A DNA stretch of 64,000 nt, taken from Cellulomonas fimi ATCC 484. GTDB taxonomy: Bacteria > Actinomycetota > Actinomycetes > Actinomycetales > Cellulomonadaceae. Position 1 is the stretch's first letter. Every line of letters begins with the position of its first letter. The translations under genes were made by a program, and so were the position numbers. This document shows positions 41,472 to 47,092 of this stretch, piece by piece. The stretch is from NCBI RefSeq assembly GCF_000212695.1, contig NC_015514.1:248001-312000 (forward strand), given 5' to 3'. The notes under the pieces were generated by a model, which saw only the letters and a program-made list of their open reading frames with translations, ran no database searches and had not been told where the DNA came from.

Positions 41472-41532
41472 GGGATCCTCCGGGTTGTTGGCTGTCGTGC
41501 GCCCCCGCCCCCGCCGCACCCGAGAGGCCCCG

Positions 41533-43665
41533 ATGACGACCACCGACGACCGTCCCGGACCCGCACGTCCCGCGACACCCACGACGCCCGCCGCTCCCGC
41601 GCCCGCCCGCCGCGCGCTGCTGCCGTTCCTGCCCATGGCCGGCCACACGGCGGGCAAGCGGTCGCCCGTCACGTGCCACCTCAAGTGCGGCGACGCGTGC
41701 GCGCAGCCCGCGCCGAACTCCTCCGGCAACCCGTACTTCCGCGACGTCGTCGAGACCGCGCTGAGCCGCCGGGCGGTGCTCGCGGGCGCGCTCGTCGCTG
41801 GTGCCGCCGTGGCGATCGCCCCGGTCGTCGGGGACGCGCTCCCCGCGGCCGCGCACGACCGCGGCCGTCCCTCGGGGCGTCTCGGGTTCCGCGCGATCGC
41901 GCCCGTCCCCGCGGCGACCGACGCGTTCGTCGTGCCCGAGGGCTACCAGTGGCGGCCGCTCGTGCGCTGGGGCGACCCGCTGCTGTCTCCGGCGGACACG
42001 TTCGACCCCGCGACGCTCACGCCCGAGGTCGCCGAGCGGCTGTTCGGCTACAACTGCGACTACGTCGACATCCTCGAGGACCCGGACGGCCGCACGGGCG
42101 TGCTCGTCGTGAACCACGAGTACACCAACGAGGGGATCATGTTCCCGCCGGCCGCCACGCCCGAGGAGCTGGACCGGCAGCGTCGCGTCGCCATGGCGTC
42201 GCACGGCCTGTCCGTCGTCGGGCTGCACCGCCGTCGCAAGGGCACGCCGTGGGAGTACCGCGTCGGCGCGCGCGTGAACCGTCGGATCACCGCCACGACG
42301 CCGTTCGCCGTCGACGGCCCCGCCGCGGGCTCCGCGCTGCTGCGCACCGTCGCGGACCCGACGGGCACGACGGTCCTCGGCACGCTCAACAACTGCGCGG
42401 GCGGGACGACCCCGTGGGGCACCGTGCTGTCGGGCGAGGAGAACGTCAACCAGTACTTCCGCACCGCCGGCACGAGCCCCGCCGACAAGCGGTACGGCTT
42501 CGCGGACAAGGCGACGACGCGCGGCTGGGAGGCGGTCGACCCGCGGTTCGACGCGCGCACGCCCGGCTACGAGAACGAGCCGAACCGCTTCGGGTGGGTC
42601 GTCGAGATCGACCCGCAGGACCCGACCGCGCCGCCCGTCAAGCACACCGCCCTCGGCCGGTTCAAGCACGAGGGCGCGAACGTCATCGTCGGCCGGTCCG
42701 GCCATGTGGCCGCGTACATGGGCGACGACGAGCGGTTCGACTACCTGTACAAGTTCGTCTCGAAGGACCGCTACCGCGCCGGCGCCCGGCACCGGGCCCG
42801 CAACAAGCAGCTGCTGTCCGCGGGGAACCTGTACGTTGCCCGCTTCCGCGGCGACTCGCCCGTCGAGGAGATCACGGGCACCGGCGCACTGCCGTCCGAC
42901 GGCGCGTTCGACGGCACCGGCGAGTGGGTGCCGCTCGTCCTGGACGGCGTCAGCCAGGTCCCCGGCTTCACGACCGAGGAGGTCCTCGTCCACACCCGCC
43001 TCGCGGCGGACGCGGTGGGCGCGACGAAGATGGACCGCCCCGAGGACGTCGAGCCGAACCCCGTGACGGGCCGCGTGTACGTCGCGTGCACCAACAACTC
43101 GGACCGGGGTGCCGCGAACAAGGAGGGCGCGACCGAGCCGAACCCCCGCGTGGCGAACCGCAACGGCCACGTCGTCGAGATCACCGAGTCGGGGAACGAC
43201 CCGCGCTCGACGACCTTCGGCTGGAGCATCCTGCTGCTGTGCGGCGACCCCGCGACCACGACCGGGACGTACTTCGCGGGCTTCCCGCCCGAGAAGGTGT
43301 CGCCGATCTCCTGCCCCGACAACGTCGCGTTCGACTCGTCGGGCAACCTGTGGATCTCGACCGACGGCCAGCCGGGCTCGATCGGCTACTGCGACGGCCT
43401 GTTCAAGGTGCCGCTCGAGGGCCGCGAGCGTGGCCGCGTCCAGCAGTTCCTGTCCGTGCCGCGCGGCGCGGAGACGTGCGGGCCGGTGATCCGCGACCGC
43501 GACGAGATGGTCTACGTCGCCGTCCAGCACCCGGGCGAGGACGGCTCGTGGGCCGCCCAGCAGTCGTTCTTCCCGGACTACGTGGCCCCCGGCACCCTGT
43601 CGGCGGGCCTCTGGGGTGGCCCCCGCCCCTCGGTGGTCCAGGTCTACCGGACGCCCCGTTCGTAG
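41533..43665 (+). CDS. phoX: PhoX-family alkaline phosphatase, Tat-exported
   Basis: 710 residues. It releases phosphate from phosphomonoesters outside the cell using Ca and Fe. The Tat signal is internal (LSRRAVLAGALVAGAAVAIA, near residue 76), a long pre-signal lead typical of this group (MAGHTAGKRSPVTCHLKCGD). Family segments include VLVVNHEYTNEG, TPWGTVLSGEENVNQYF, GRFKHEGANVIV and CPDNVAFDSSGNLWISTDG. The PHO box upstream predicts induction by phosphate starvation. Confidence 0.92.
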   Translation: MTTTDDRPGPARPATPTTPAAPAPARRALLPFLPMAGHTAGKRSPVTCHLKCGDACAQPAPNSSGNPYFRDVVETALSRRAVLAGALVAGAAVAIAPVVGDALPAAAHDRGRPSGRLGFRAIAPVPAATDAFVVPEGYQWRPLVRWGDPLLSPADTFDPATLTPEVAERLFGYNCDYVDILEDPDGRTGVLVVNHEYTNEGIMFPPAATPEELDRQRRVAMASHGLSVVGLHRRRKGTPWEYRVGARVNRRITATTPFAVDGPAAGSALLRTVADPTGTTVLGTLNNCAGGTTPWGTVLSGEENVNQYFRTAGTSPADKRYGFADKATTRGWEAVDPRFDARTPGYENEPNRFGWVVEIDPQDPTAPPVKHTALGRFKHEGANVIVGRSGHVAAYMGDDERFDYLYKFVSKDRYRAGARHRARNKQLLSAGNLYVARFRGDSPVEEITGTGALPSDGAFDGTGEWVPLVLDGVSQVPGFTTEEVLVHTRLAADAVGATKMDRPEDVEPNPVTGRVYVACTNNSDRGAANKEGATEPNPRVANRNGHVVEITESGNDPRSTTFGWSILLLCGDPATTTGTYFAGFPPEKVSPISCPDNVAFDSSGNLWISTDGQPGSIGYCDGLFKVPLEGRERGRVQQFLSVPRGAETCGPVIRDRDEMVYVAVQHPGEDGSWAAQQSFFPDYVAPGTLSAGLWGGPRPSVVQVYRTPRS

Positions 43666-43674
43666 CCGGGACCC

Positions 43675-43734
43675 GTTGACACCGACCTGGTTGTCGTTCT
43701 GCGACCCGAGAACGACAACCAGGTCGGTGTCGAC
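43675..43734. repeat. 60-base palindromic repeat, left copy
   Basis: Contains a perfect 22-bp inverted repeat (43678-43699 against 43710-43731) with a 10-base centre. The arm includes GACACCGACCTGG and TTGTCGTTC. It starts 10 bases after the phoX stop, so it could also end that transcript. It is related to the copy at 44824-44883 (44 of 60 positions identical, ungapped). Confidence 0.88.
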
Positions 43735-43835
43735 CGTCGATCGCGAGCCGTCCACGAGGACGTCTCCGCGATGCGGCGTCCACAGGGCGTCGGTCGGGAG
43801 TCCTCGGTGGGGCCGGCCGCCGGTGTCGTGGGCGG

Positions 43836-44828
43836 ATGCGCCCGCCGTTCGTCGTCCCCCGTGACCTCCTCGTGCTCGCCTCCCGGCAGGGCGGTCTCGT
43901 CTCCACCGCCCAGGCGGACCGCGCGGGGGTCGACGGTCGCCGACGGGCGACGCTCGTCCGCGCCGGCACGTGGGTGCGCGTCACCCGTGGTGTGTACGAC
44001 GCCGGCACGGTCATGGTCGTCGACCCTGACGAGCGCCGCCGCCGAGCCGCTTGGCTCGGCATGCTCGCGTACGGCCCGGACGCGGTCGCCGTCGGGGCCT
44101 GCGCCCTTGCCCTCCACGGTGTCGCCGGGCTCCCGCCGGTGATCACCCCGCAGGTCGCGCTGCCGGGTGGACGGCACGCACCCGGACGGGGCGGCATCGC
44201 TGTGCGGTGCTACGGGCAGACGGTGCCGTTCGCGTCCGGTCGGTACGGCGCGGGCCGGGTCGCCGCGCTCCCGGCTGCACTCGTGCAGGCGGTGCCGGAG
44301 CTGCCGGTGCGCCACGGTGTCGCGGTCCTGGACGACGTCCTGCGTCGAGGCCTCCTGTCGCCGCAGGCGGTGGCGGCGGTGCGACGCTCGACGGGTCGGC
44401 GGCGCGGCGTGCGCAGGGTCCGCCCGGTCTGGGACCTCGTGGATCCCCGGGCCGAGTCGCCGCTGGAGTCGTTCGCGCGTCTGGACTGCGTCATGGCCGG
44501 CCTTGCGCCGGACGAGCTGCAGGTCGTCATCAGGTCGTCCGACTCCGGGCGCGTGCTCGGGCGCGGCGACCTCGGGTGGGACCTCGGCGGCGGTCGGTGG
44601 CTCATCGCCGAGATCGACGGCCGTGCGGTCCACGAGGCACCCGCTGCGCTGCTGCAGGACAGGCGCCGGCAGAACGCGCTCCTCGGGACGGGGCGCGTCG
44701 AGATGCTGCGGTTCACGGCTGCGGACCTCGGACCCTCGGGTGGGCTCGTCGCGACGGTCCGCGCACACCTGCAGGCCCGCGGCCGCGACCTCCGGCCCCC
44801 ACCGTCCCTCGCCCCACGGACCGGTTGA
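43836..44828 (+). CDS. AbiEi/DUF559-type nuclease-like protein, repeat-flanked
   Basis: 330 residues. The N-terminal 60 or so form a winged-helix AbiEi-antitoxin-like domain (ASRQGGLVSTAQADRAGVDG, VRAGTWVRVTRGVYDAG). The C terminus looks like a Vsr/DUF559 nuclease fold: Glu207 and Glu211 in ESPLESFARL, Asp245 in RGDLGWDL, Glu259 and Asp261 in LIAEIDGRAVH, and the helix DRRRQNAL (276-282). The gene is bracketed by two related 60-base palindromic repeats, and its stop codon lies inside the right copy. Similar single genes are scattered in actinobacterial genomes; the activity is unproven. No cognate AbiEii toxin is next to it. Confidence 0.8.
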   Translation: MRPPFVVPRDLLVLASRQGGLVSTAQADRAGVDGRRRATLVRAGTWVRVTRGVYDAGTVMVVDPDERRRRAAWLGMLAYGPDAVAVGACALALHGVAGLPPVITPQVALPGGRHAPGRGGIAVRCYGQTVPFASGRYGAGRVAALPAALVQAVPELPVRHGVAVLDDVLRRGLLSPQAVAAVRRSTGRRRGVRRVRPVWDLVDPRAESPLESFARLDCVMAGLAPDELQVVIRSSDSGRVLGRGDLGWDLGGGRWLIAEIDGRAVHEAPAALLQDRRRQNALLGTGRVEMLRFTAADLGPSGGLVATVRAHLQARGRDLRPPPSLAPRTG

Positions 44829-44883
44829 CACCGGGCTGGTTGTCGTTCTGCCGGTCGTCGGCGTCCCCAGGATCGGTGTCGAC
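44824..44883. repeat. 60-base palindromic repeat, right copy
   Basis: Begins GTTGACACCG and ends CGGTGTCGAC exactly as the left copy does, and keeps CTGGTTGTCGTTCTGC, but the inner right arm has diverged so the long stem is lost. The TGA of the nuclease-like gene is in its first bases. Confidence 0.82.
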
Positions 44884-44929
44884 GGCGTGAGCGGGCGAGG
44901 CATGGGCGGGGGCGTGATAGGACGGGGCC

Positions 44930-47092
44930 GTGAGCGAGACGCGCGACGAGACGGCCGGCACGAGCAGCACGAGCACCGGGGACGGGTCGGCAGGGCCTGA
45001 CGGGGCCGGGGCGGCAGGGACCGCGTTCCACGACCTCGACGCGTACGTGGCGCTGCCGCGGCTGTCCGGGCTGGTGCTCTCGCCCGACGGGACGCGGCTC
45101 GTGACGGCCGTCTCGACGCTCGACCCCAAGCGCACGCGCTACGTGACGGCGCTGTGGGAGGTCGACCCCGAGGGACGCAAGCCCGCCCGGCGGCTCACGC
45201 GGAGCGCGAAGGGCGAGGCGAGCGCGGCGTTCACCGCGGCGGGCGACGTGCTGTTCACCAGCGCACGGCCCGACCCGGACGCGAAGGACGCGGACGACGA
45301 GCCGGTGCCGGCGCTGTGGCTCCTGCCGGCGGACGGTCCGGAGGCCCGGGTCGTGGCGGACCGGGCGGCGGGACTGGGCGGCGTGCGGGTCGCGAAGGAC
45401 GCGCCGGTGGTGCTCGTGTCGTCGGACGTGCTGCCGTCGGCGAAGGACGCCGAGACGGACGAGCGCCTGCGCAAGGCGCGCAAGGAGAAGAAGGTCGCGG
45501 CGATCCTGCACGACGCGTACCCGGTCCGGTACTGGGACCACGACCTGGGCCCGGAGTCCCCGCACCTGTTCACGGCGGACCTGGGCGCGGACGTCGTGAC
45601 GCCGCTCGCGGGCACGGCGGACCCGCGGCTCGAGCTGCGGGACGCGACGCCGGACGCGCGCTCGGCGCTCGTCGAGCAGGGCGCGGCGATCTCGCCCGAC
45701 GGCACGACGCTCGTGACGGGGTGGACGGTGCCGCGCGCGCGGGGCGACCAGCGCAGCGTGCTCGTCGCGGTCGACGTGGCGACGGGGGAGCGGCGCACGC
45801 TCGTCGAGGACGAGGGGGCGGACCTGTGGGGCCCGGTCGTCTCGCCCGACGGCCGGTGGGTCGCGTTCGGACGGGAGACGGTGTCGACGCCCTTCGAGGC
45901 GCCGCGGCTGTCGCTGCAGGTCGTCCCGCTCGCGGGCGGCGAGCCGCGGACCCTCGGCGAGGGCTGGGACCGCTGGCCGCACGACCCGGTCTGGCTGCCG
46001 GGTTCGGACGGGCTGCTGGTGCTGGCGGACGACGAGGGGCGCGGCCCGGTGTTCCGCGTCGACCTGGCGTCGGGCGAGGTGACGCGGGTGACGTCGGACG
46101 ACGCGGTGTTCACGGACGTCCAGGTGAGCCCGGACGGCCGGACGGCGTACGCGCTGCGGTCGTCGTACGAGGCGCCTGCGCACCCGGTGCGGATCGACCT
46201 GGCGCGCGCGACGGAGACGGGGGAGCCGGTCGCGGCGACCGCGCTGGTCTCCCCGGCGGCGACGCCGAAGTTTCCGGGGCGGCTCACGGAGGTCGAGACG
46301 ACGGTGGCCGACGGTCGGCGGGTGCGGGCGTGGCTCGCGCTGCCCGACGGCGCGTCGGGCACGGACCCGGCACCCCTGCTGCTGTGGATCCACGGCGGCC
46401 CGCTCGGCTCGTGGAACACGTGGTCGTGGCGCTGGAACCCGTGGCTGCTGGTCGCGCAGGGCTATGCGGTGCTCCTGCCGGACCCGGCGCTGTCGACGGG
46501 GTACGGGCAGGACTTCGTGCAGGCGGGCTGGGGTGCGTGGGGGGCGGCGCCGTTCACGGACCTCATGGCGGTCACGGACGTGGCGGAGGCACGCCCCGAC
46601 GTGGACGCGACGCGCACGGCGGCGATGGGCGGCTCGTTCGGCGGGTACATGGCGAACTGGGTCGCTGGCCACACGGACCGGTTCCGCGCGGTCGTCACGC
46701 ACGCGAGCCTGTGGGCGCTCGACCAGTTCGGCCCGACGACGGACGCGGCGTACTACTGGCAGCGCGAGATGACGCAGGAGATGGCGCTCGAGAACTCGCC
46801 GCACCGGTTCGTCGAGAAGATCGTCACGCCGATGCTCGTGGTGCACGGCGACAAGGACTACCGGGTGCCGATCGGCGAGGGCCTGCGCCTCTGGTACGAG
46901 CTCGTGTCGCGGTCGGGGCTGCCGGCGGACGACGAGGGCCGCACGCCGCACCGGTTCCTGTACTTCCCGGACGAGAACCACTGGGTCCTGACGCCGCAGC
47001 ACGCGATCGTCTGGTACCAGGTGGTGCAGGCGTTCCTCGCGGAGCACGTGCTGGGCCGGTCGGACGTCACGTACCCGGAGGTGCTGGGCTGA
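44930..47092 (+). CDS. S9-family prolyl oligopeptidase-type peptidase
   Basis: 720 residues. The N-terminal beta-propeller contains repeated SPDGT/SPDGR blades (for example VLSPDGTRLVTAVS, ISPDGTTLVTGW). The C-terminal alpha/beta hydrolase domain has the nucleophile in MGGSFGGYMANW (Ser569), Asp in HGDKDYRVP and His in DENHWV. No signal peptide, so it acts in the cytosol on short peptides. GTG start, immediately after the repeat. Confidence 0.93.
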   Translation: MSETRDETAGTSSTSTGDGSAGPDGAGAAGTAFHDLDAYVALPRLSGLVLSPDGTRLVTAVSTLDPKRTRYVTALWEVDPEGRKPARRLTRSAKGEASAAFTAAGDVLFTSARPDPDAKDADDEPVPALWLLPADGPEARVVADRAAGLGGVRVAKDAPVVLVSSDVLPSAKDAETDERLRKARKEKKVAAILHDAYPVRYWDHDLGPESPHLFTADLGADVVTPLAGTADPRLELRDATPDARSALVEQGAAISPDGTTLVTGWTVPRARGDQRSVLVAVDVATGERRTLVEDEGADLWGPVVSPDGRWVAFGRETVSTPFEAPRLSLQVVPLAGGEPRTLGEGWDRWPHDPVWLPGSDGLLVLADDEGRGPVFRVDLASGEVTRVTSDDAVFTDVQVSPDGRTAYALRSSYEAPAHPVRIDLARATETGEPVAATALVSPAATPKFPGRLTEVETTVADGRRVRAWLALPDGASGTDPAPLLLWIHGGPLGSWNTWSWRWNPWLLVAQGYAVLLPDPALSTGYGQDFVQAGWGAWGAAPFTDLMAVTDVAEARPDVDATRTAAMGGSFGGYMANWVAGHTDRFRAVVTHASLWALDQFGPTTDAAYYWQREMTQEMALENSPHRFVEKIVTPMLVVHGDKDYRVPIGEGLRLWYELVSRSGLPADDEGRTPHRFLYFPDENHWVLTPQHAIVWYQVVQAFLAEHVLGRSDVTYPEVLG

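Follow-up and report, generated by a model that had tools for sequence, protein, structure and literature searches.

Our analysis showed that, in Cellulomonas fimi ATCC 484 and in most of the relatives examined, a predicted nuclease gene is bracketed by two copies of a long palindromic element, and that this association holds across the family. Gene and palindromes probably form a matched nuclease-repeat system, REPtron-like and with an unrelated enzyme, in which the nuclease would act on its own palindrome. The window, by which we mean the whole stretch of 64,000 nucleotides analysed (positions 248,001 to 312,000 of contig NC_015514.1), contains the following features:

41485..43665, + strand: upstream neighbour, PhoX family protein (context, outside the unit)
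43675..43734, no strand assigned: left palindromic element, with a 23-bp uninterrupted stem, 26-nt arms and an 8-nt loop
43836..44828, + strand: predicted AbiEi-EDxHD/Vsr-type nuclease gene, 330 aa
43842..44444, + strand: AbiEi-like DNA-binding module, residues 3-203
44454..44786, + strand: Vsr / I-Bth0305I-like nuclease domain, residues 207-317
44466 (E211), 44568 (D245), 44610 (E259), 44616 (D261), 44631 (H266) and 44658 (D275): nuclease residues
44824..44883, no strand assigned: right element copy, degenerate, containing the nuclease stop codon (44826-44828)
44930..47092, + strand: downstream neighbour, S9 (prolyl oligopeptidase) family peptidase (context)

The left element starts 10 nt past the end of the PhoX stop codon and ends 101 nt 5' of the nuclease gene. 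Its 26-nt arms are 96% complementary around the 8-nt loop, and beyond the uninterrupted stem there is one mismatch followed by two more outer pairs; the preliminary description had rightly seen a perfect stem here, but gave its length as 22 bp rather than 23. A recount agreed with its two direct 60-base copies, which are identical at 44 of 60 positions and have the same 10-base ends, and the right copy has indeed lost the stem: of 30 symmetric positions 26 pair in the left element but 14 in the right one, within which the TGA of the gene falls. The best ungapped 60-mer match from flank to flank was 44, compared with 32-36 in eight 3-mer-block shuffles. When as many as 3 mismatches were tolerated, the 16-nt core ACCTGGTTGTCGTTCT matched four times in the window against 0.15 expected, and one of these matches (42440-42455, 3 mismatches) lies outside both elements. 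The nuclease gene itself (43836-44828) is single copy in the C. fimi genome. An Rfam search over 43400-45100 gave two matches at E<=1, both well under their gathering scores, and thus supported no RNA family. The main points of the earlier observation hold overall, but it understated the case, as the bracketing extends across the family.

We examined bracketing in 80 named loci (the best 80 of 184) from Cellulomonas, Oerskovia, Cellulosimicrobium, Isoptericola, Promicromonospora and others by local alignment of the 400 nt before each gene with the 400 nt after it, using a score of at least 40 as the threshold. The flanks matched in 57 of the 80 loci, leaving 23 below the threshold, and in 0 of 77 when the windows were shifted by 1.2 kb. 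Among other predicted genes in the same loci only 3 of 166 passed, two of them with near-identical coordinates in L106 and L111, which corresponds to a Fisher p of 4e-33 for 80 loci that are not independent of one another. Random pairs of different loci passed in 20 of 300 cases, as expected among closely related loci. Distant paralogues, with 29-44% identity to the best genus relative, passed in 17 of 20 cases, three of them marginally (40-44). An earlier hairpin score, computed on 18-nt outer arms, discriminated poorly (it was also passed by 33 of 174 control windows), and the comparison of left and right flanks was used instead. The shared segment is clearly self-complementary in 44 of the 57 matching loci and not clearly so in the other 13 (18 of 74 with the genus set added); in some of these loci only one arm was aligned, and several of the alignments include, or are lengthened by, GC-rich low-complexity sequence. 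In the 57 loci, the left element ends at a median of 121 nt 5' of the gene start, and the right element begins at a median of 11 nt before the end of the stop codon. Some ends are composite: in five Oerskovia and Cellulosimicrobium loci (L101, L116, L117, L122, and L165) a full palindrome is accompanied by an inner half-site about 12 nt away, and these ends are inverted on the two sides of the gene, resembling terminal inverted repeats. In the distant paralogues L254, L255, L268, and L270 the arms are repeated, with several forward and reverse half-sites, and the elements reach about 70 nt or more.

The sequence of the palindrome follows that of the protein. The 57 matching loci fall into 37 repeat clusters, with a score of at least 44 counting as a palindrome match between clusters. 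A palindrome was common to 11 of 12 locus pairs at 80% protein identity or more, 22 of 29 at 70-80%, 11 of 67 at 60-70%, 2 of 121 at 55-60% and 0 of 1367 below 55% (Spearman 0.36). Species relatedness contributes to this trend, but it does not explain the concerted change seen at the junction between the CtaG or PhoX gene and the S9 peptidase gene. There, 20 loci carry the gene in the same orientation as in the window and 10 of them have matched sides, but only 1 of the 45 pairs among these 10 shares a palindrome, which indicates that the two flanking copies evolve in concert while their location stays the same. A search of 81 genus genomes for the exact core of the window palindrome (11-N16,36-11) found it in the window's own genome only; this had at first suggested a species-specific oddity, an idea that was dropped because other species have palindromes of their own.

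At the same junction the gene is found in both orientations. It is forward in the 20 loci mentioned above, and reversed with both neighbours confirmed in six (L114, L119, L122, L132, L140, and L165) and with S9 alone confirmed in two more (L108 and L125). Between the CtaG and S9 peptidase genes, the units of these six loci lie opposite to those of L091-L107, L116, and L117 in related species. Within Cellulosimicrobium, L116 and L117 have the gene forward and L114, L122, L132, L140, and L165 have it reversed; by eye, one palindrome remains beside the CtaG stop and the other ahead of the S9 promoter region in either case, and the DNA outside them is collinear. Inverted pairs were found in four more contexts, namely the ten-locus L110 group, L104/L138 versus L123, L112 versus L144, and L136 versus L148/L154. 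Altogether, the 80 loci occupy 31 genomic contexts if either orientation is allowed, or 36 if reversed units are counted as different places. The gene was thus either flipped between its palindromes or entered symmetric sites either way round, and the presence of both orientations at one site speaks for recombination there. Ordinary homologous recombination between inverted repeats, without any enzyme, could also cause such inversions.

The palindromes are not confined to the gene. In C. fimi, palindromes with the same arms occur at five places in all, three of them solo (137954, 942455, and 3814004); the solo copies are intergenic, with one overlapping a stop codon by 2 nt. The L136 palindrome was found in six Promicromonospora genomes in at least 86, at least 80, 78, 56, 16, and 3 rows, counting both strands and scoring the best 40 of 77 and the best 40 of 75 candidates in the first two genomes. 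In the first of these, overlap with predicted genes stays at or below 20 nt in all 34 instances (28 distinct) taken from the best matches listed, and 18 of the 34, or 16 of the 28 distinct, lie between convergent genes, according to a crude GC3 gene prediction that failed on one or both sides of two instances. Two Cellulomonas palindromes searched against 81 genomes, with the best 11 candidates per genome scored, gave matches in 16 (E<=0.01) and 11 (E<=1e-4) genomes, with high copy numbers of each in a handful of them; in G024, G041, and G080 the gene is bracketed by the second. All eight genomes with at least four rows of the first palindrome contain a nuclease gene (E below 1e-93). However, G024, G041, and G042 contain the first palindrome type without having it beside their gene at the shared site, and G040 contains the second type although only the close gene, and no distant paralogue, was matched there; these cases count against a strict one-to-one rule of enzyme and repeat. 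The preliminary description had said that repeats lying away from the gene, or at sites lacking it, would speak against its reading. Such copies do occur in part, including in some genomes where a matching gene was not found, but copies away from the gene are how REPs behave, and they leave the bracketing unexplained.

The geometry of the element is fixed. All 27 distinct Promicromonospora copies have a gap of 16, the same length, near-constant arms and a variable 8-nt centre, in a pattern with nine inner arm bases fixed and gaps of 14-22 allowed, so that the arms of these best matches are partly preselected. In the 49 of 57 loci that were centred, positions 8-28 nt out from the centre pair at 0.73-0.97 and those within 7 nt at 0.40-0.61, a contrast partly built in by centring, which maximised pairing at 9-28 nt and kept well-paired loci only; at 31-32 nt pairing drops to 0.53-0.54. 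Two copies in the window's genome retain an exact 12-N26-12. A search of viral contigs for one exact core pattern gave 0 matches. Beside Promicromonospora palindromes (L240, around 4447 and 11903) there are also intergenic tandem repeats of the GGCAGACTGCCGA type that vary between species.

At orthologous intergenic places in Promicromonospora the palindromes are present in some cases and absent in others. Of three sites in L243, the palindrome at the first is present only in G081 of five genomes, that at the second in G081, G082, and G083 of five, and that at the third is absent from G083, the sole alignable genome of three compared; the sites of L240 likewise differ in its presence and absence. 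No insertion with clean boundaries was seen at the orthologous Promicromonospora sites, where other intergenic DNA differs along with the palindrome. Comparing L243:7355-7830 with L304 (G084), we observed that the palindrome is replaced by an array of repeats of the GCCGCAAGTTG and GTTCGGCACGCCGATTCACGTTCAACC types, which is perhaps another palindrome family. Of 30 S9 loci examined, 20 have the gene and 10 do not, and in three of these 10 CtaG lies directly 5' of S9. One of the gene-less CtaG-S9 sites (L177, in G060) has a solo hairpin and a half-site that by eye resemble the palindrome of L270, a distant paralogue, and look like the relic of one palindrome family; at L178 the hairpin, of 40-46 nt, is of another kind, and L200 has an ordinary GC hairpin.

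To describe the protein, we drew on several profile libraries. Pfam called AbiEi_4 on the window protein but not DUF559, which matched 3 of 30 genus sequences, while REase_MTES_1575 matched 9 of 30; the AbiEi part of the earlier AbiEi/DUF559 label is thus borne out, and the DUF559 part is not for this protein. The AbiEi models of the PADLOC library match the N-terminal (AbiEi) part only, NCBIfam placed the nuclease in no family at E<=0.1, and a sequence-profile search of the PDB with the nuclease gave 0 matches at E<=1. The closest nuclease fold to the nuclease domain is that of a homing endonuclease of the I-Bth0305I type. The protein is an AbiEi-type DNA-binding module joined to a predicted nuclease domain of the Vsr/I-Bth0305I (EDxHD) type, with a putative EDxHD motif at E211-D245-H266-D275. 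The site residues that had been named beforehand are conserved, as Glu211, Asp245, Glu259, and Asp261 are invariant across 77 sequences and Glu207 nearly so. With dN/dS at 0.14-0.34 in 39 of 40 pairs, the nuclease gene is under purifying selection. Two of the nuclease genes examined, those of L140 and L266, have an in-frame stop, so inactive copies exist.

Bracketing, co-divergence, both orientations, extragenic dispersal, fixed length, a conserved active site, purifying selection, and searches that found no HUH enzyme are the observations behind the matched nuclease-repeat reading; from them we infer dimer binding, cutting, copying by repair and any benefit to the host. The protein would probably bind its palindrome, of about 58 bp, in dimeric form, with the arms conferring specificity at a fixed spacing, the AbiEi modules on the outer arms and the nuclease domains over the centre, where the sequence is free. 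Such a placement would fit the fixed geometry, the 11-N27-11 site of AbiEi and the I-Bth0305I target of nearly 60 bp. Nicking or cutting at the centre may then be followed by recombination or repair with another copy, which could flip the gene between its two palindromes, homogenise the bracketing copies so that they change together, and occasionally seed copies at other extragenic places, where their hairpins can act as terminators. Counting against this reading are the lack of any clean insertion, the 23 of 80 loci below the threshold, the 13 of 57 matching loci whose shared segment is not clearly self-complementary, the GC-rich sequence in several flank matches, the genomes with dispersed palindromes of a type that does not flank their gene, the possibility that ordinary recombination caused the inversions, and the degenerate right copy in the window.

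An alternative is that the AbiEi module represses its own gene through the upstream palindrome, with the downstream copy terminating transcription and the dispersed copies serving as decoys or a regulon. The position of the elements relative to the gene start and stop suits this idea, and AbiEi is described as an autorepressor that binds a similarly spaced palindrome upstream of its operon (PMC3985639). Nevertheless, a 3' copy and a conserved nuclease active site are both superfluous for autorepression, and a promoter is not expected between convergent genes, where 16 of the 28 distinct dispersed copies inspected lie, so we regard it as rather unlikely. Much less probable is the simpler view that the hairpins are plain terminators, alike through shared ancestry or gene conversion and unlinked to the protein. 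Copies do occur at 3' ends and between convergent genes, and orthologous sites lacking the gene (L200 and L178) also have hairpins, but matching flanks are rare at neighbouring genes, a fixed length with a free centre is unlike generic terminators, and the palindrome sequence tracks the protein.

The inversions support the nuclease-repeat reading and homing alike. As a homing element, the nuclease would cut solo palindromes and the unit would be copied in by repair, either way round because the target is symmetric, leaving the bracketing palindromes as a split target. The closest fold, the two orientations at one site, the gene-less sites at the same junction and the spread of the 80 loci over 31 contexts (either orientation) all agree with this, but homing would be expected to fill the three solo palindromes of the C. 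fimi genome, in which the gene is single copy, and we consider it improbable. The preliminary description had also raised a role in defence, with the palindromes marking self DNA or serving as bait and the nuclease attacking DNA that lacks them. The PADLOC AbiEi matches point in this direction but are confined to the AbiEi part of the protein, no toxin partner adjoins the window gene, the plasmid and phage collections gave no match at E<=1e-8 and the neighbourhoods are many, which makes defence the faintest of prospects.

The matched nuclease-repeat system shares several traits with the REPtrons of REP/RAYT: a chromosomal nuclease gene is flanked by palindromes that are also dispersed between genes, and different copies of the gene pair with different classes of repeat. 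RAYTs are described as HUH enzymes acting on single-stranded REPs tagged with GTAG (PMC3733652, PMC8266576), and REPs as 20-40 bp long (PMC3733652). Here the enzyme is instead of the AbiEi and Vsr-fold type and the element is longer. The HUH transposase family Y1_Tnp (PF01797) was found in 0 of 6 genomes, with a control search positive in 5 of 14, and GTAG/CTAC is absent from both window elements with their 10-nt flanks and from the Promicromonospora majority sequence. The REP/RAYT-style unit proposed beforehand is therefore apt for the bracketing (57/80 versus 3/166) and the REP-like scatter but not for the enzyme; the system is REPtron-like, not a REPtron, since the enzyme and, where checked, the GTAG tag differ. 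The plasmid and phage collections contained no protein relative of the AbiEi-Vsr nuclease at E<=1e-8, which agrees with tnpA_REP, whose behaviour is described as housekeeping-like (PMC8266576), and fits a chromosomal and domesticated protein. An insertion sequence or transposon differs in being multicopy, whereas the nuclease gene is single copy in its own genome.

Likeness to other known systems is partial. The published 11-N27-11 site belongs to an AbiEi that we take to be the Streptococcus agalactiae protein. AbiEi is reported to bind this palindrome (PMC3985639), to which the 12-N26-12 copies of the window's genome can be compared. The AbiEi fold is shared with the AbiE type IV toxin-antitoxin system, but the window neighbours are PhoX and an S9 peptidase, with no AbiEii partner, and the extra nuclease domain, the second palindrome 3' of the gene and the dispersed copies are all differences from the AbiEi antitoxin. 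The catalytic fold is shared with I-Bth0305I, whose dimer acts on a target of nearly 60 bp according to a review (PMC3943268); the DNA-binding part here is instead an AbiEi module, and the presumed target is palindromic and lies on both sides of the gene. Compared with Vsr and DUF559 Vsr-like nucleases such as Caulobacter VsrA, the domain here is fused to AbiEi and linked to palindromes, and neither of the two window neighbours is a methyltransferase. Among the literature matches listed, we found no paper tying DUF559, AbiEi or Vsr-like nucleases to dispersed palindromes.

Few small repeats of bacterial chromosomes are as well known as REPs. Their mechanism of spread is described as still poorly understood (PMC8266576). 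We tentatively suggest, as a broader possibility than the matched system itself, that the Actinomycetota harbour a class of AbiEi-EDxHD nucleases, each cutting its own family of palindromes of about 58 bp at the free centre and recombining or copying them by repair, so that genes flip and repeat families are born, homogenised and replaced together with their enzyme. This would be a second, independent invention of a REP-like system, based on a restriction-fold rather than an HUH enzyme. If true, a second system with the same architecture and an unrelated enzyme would show that such an arrangement is not limited to a single origin. Proteins that now carry the names "AbiEi antitoxin domain", "DUF559" or "hypothetical" would gain a suggested function, and some of them may be misfiled as toxin-antitoxin or defence genes. 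The loci also offer a testable set: dozens of enzyme-palindrome couples occurring in nature, whose candidate recognition sequences are long and distinct.
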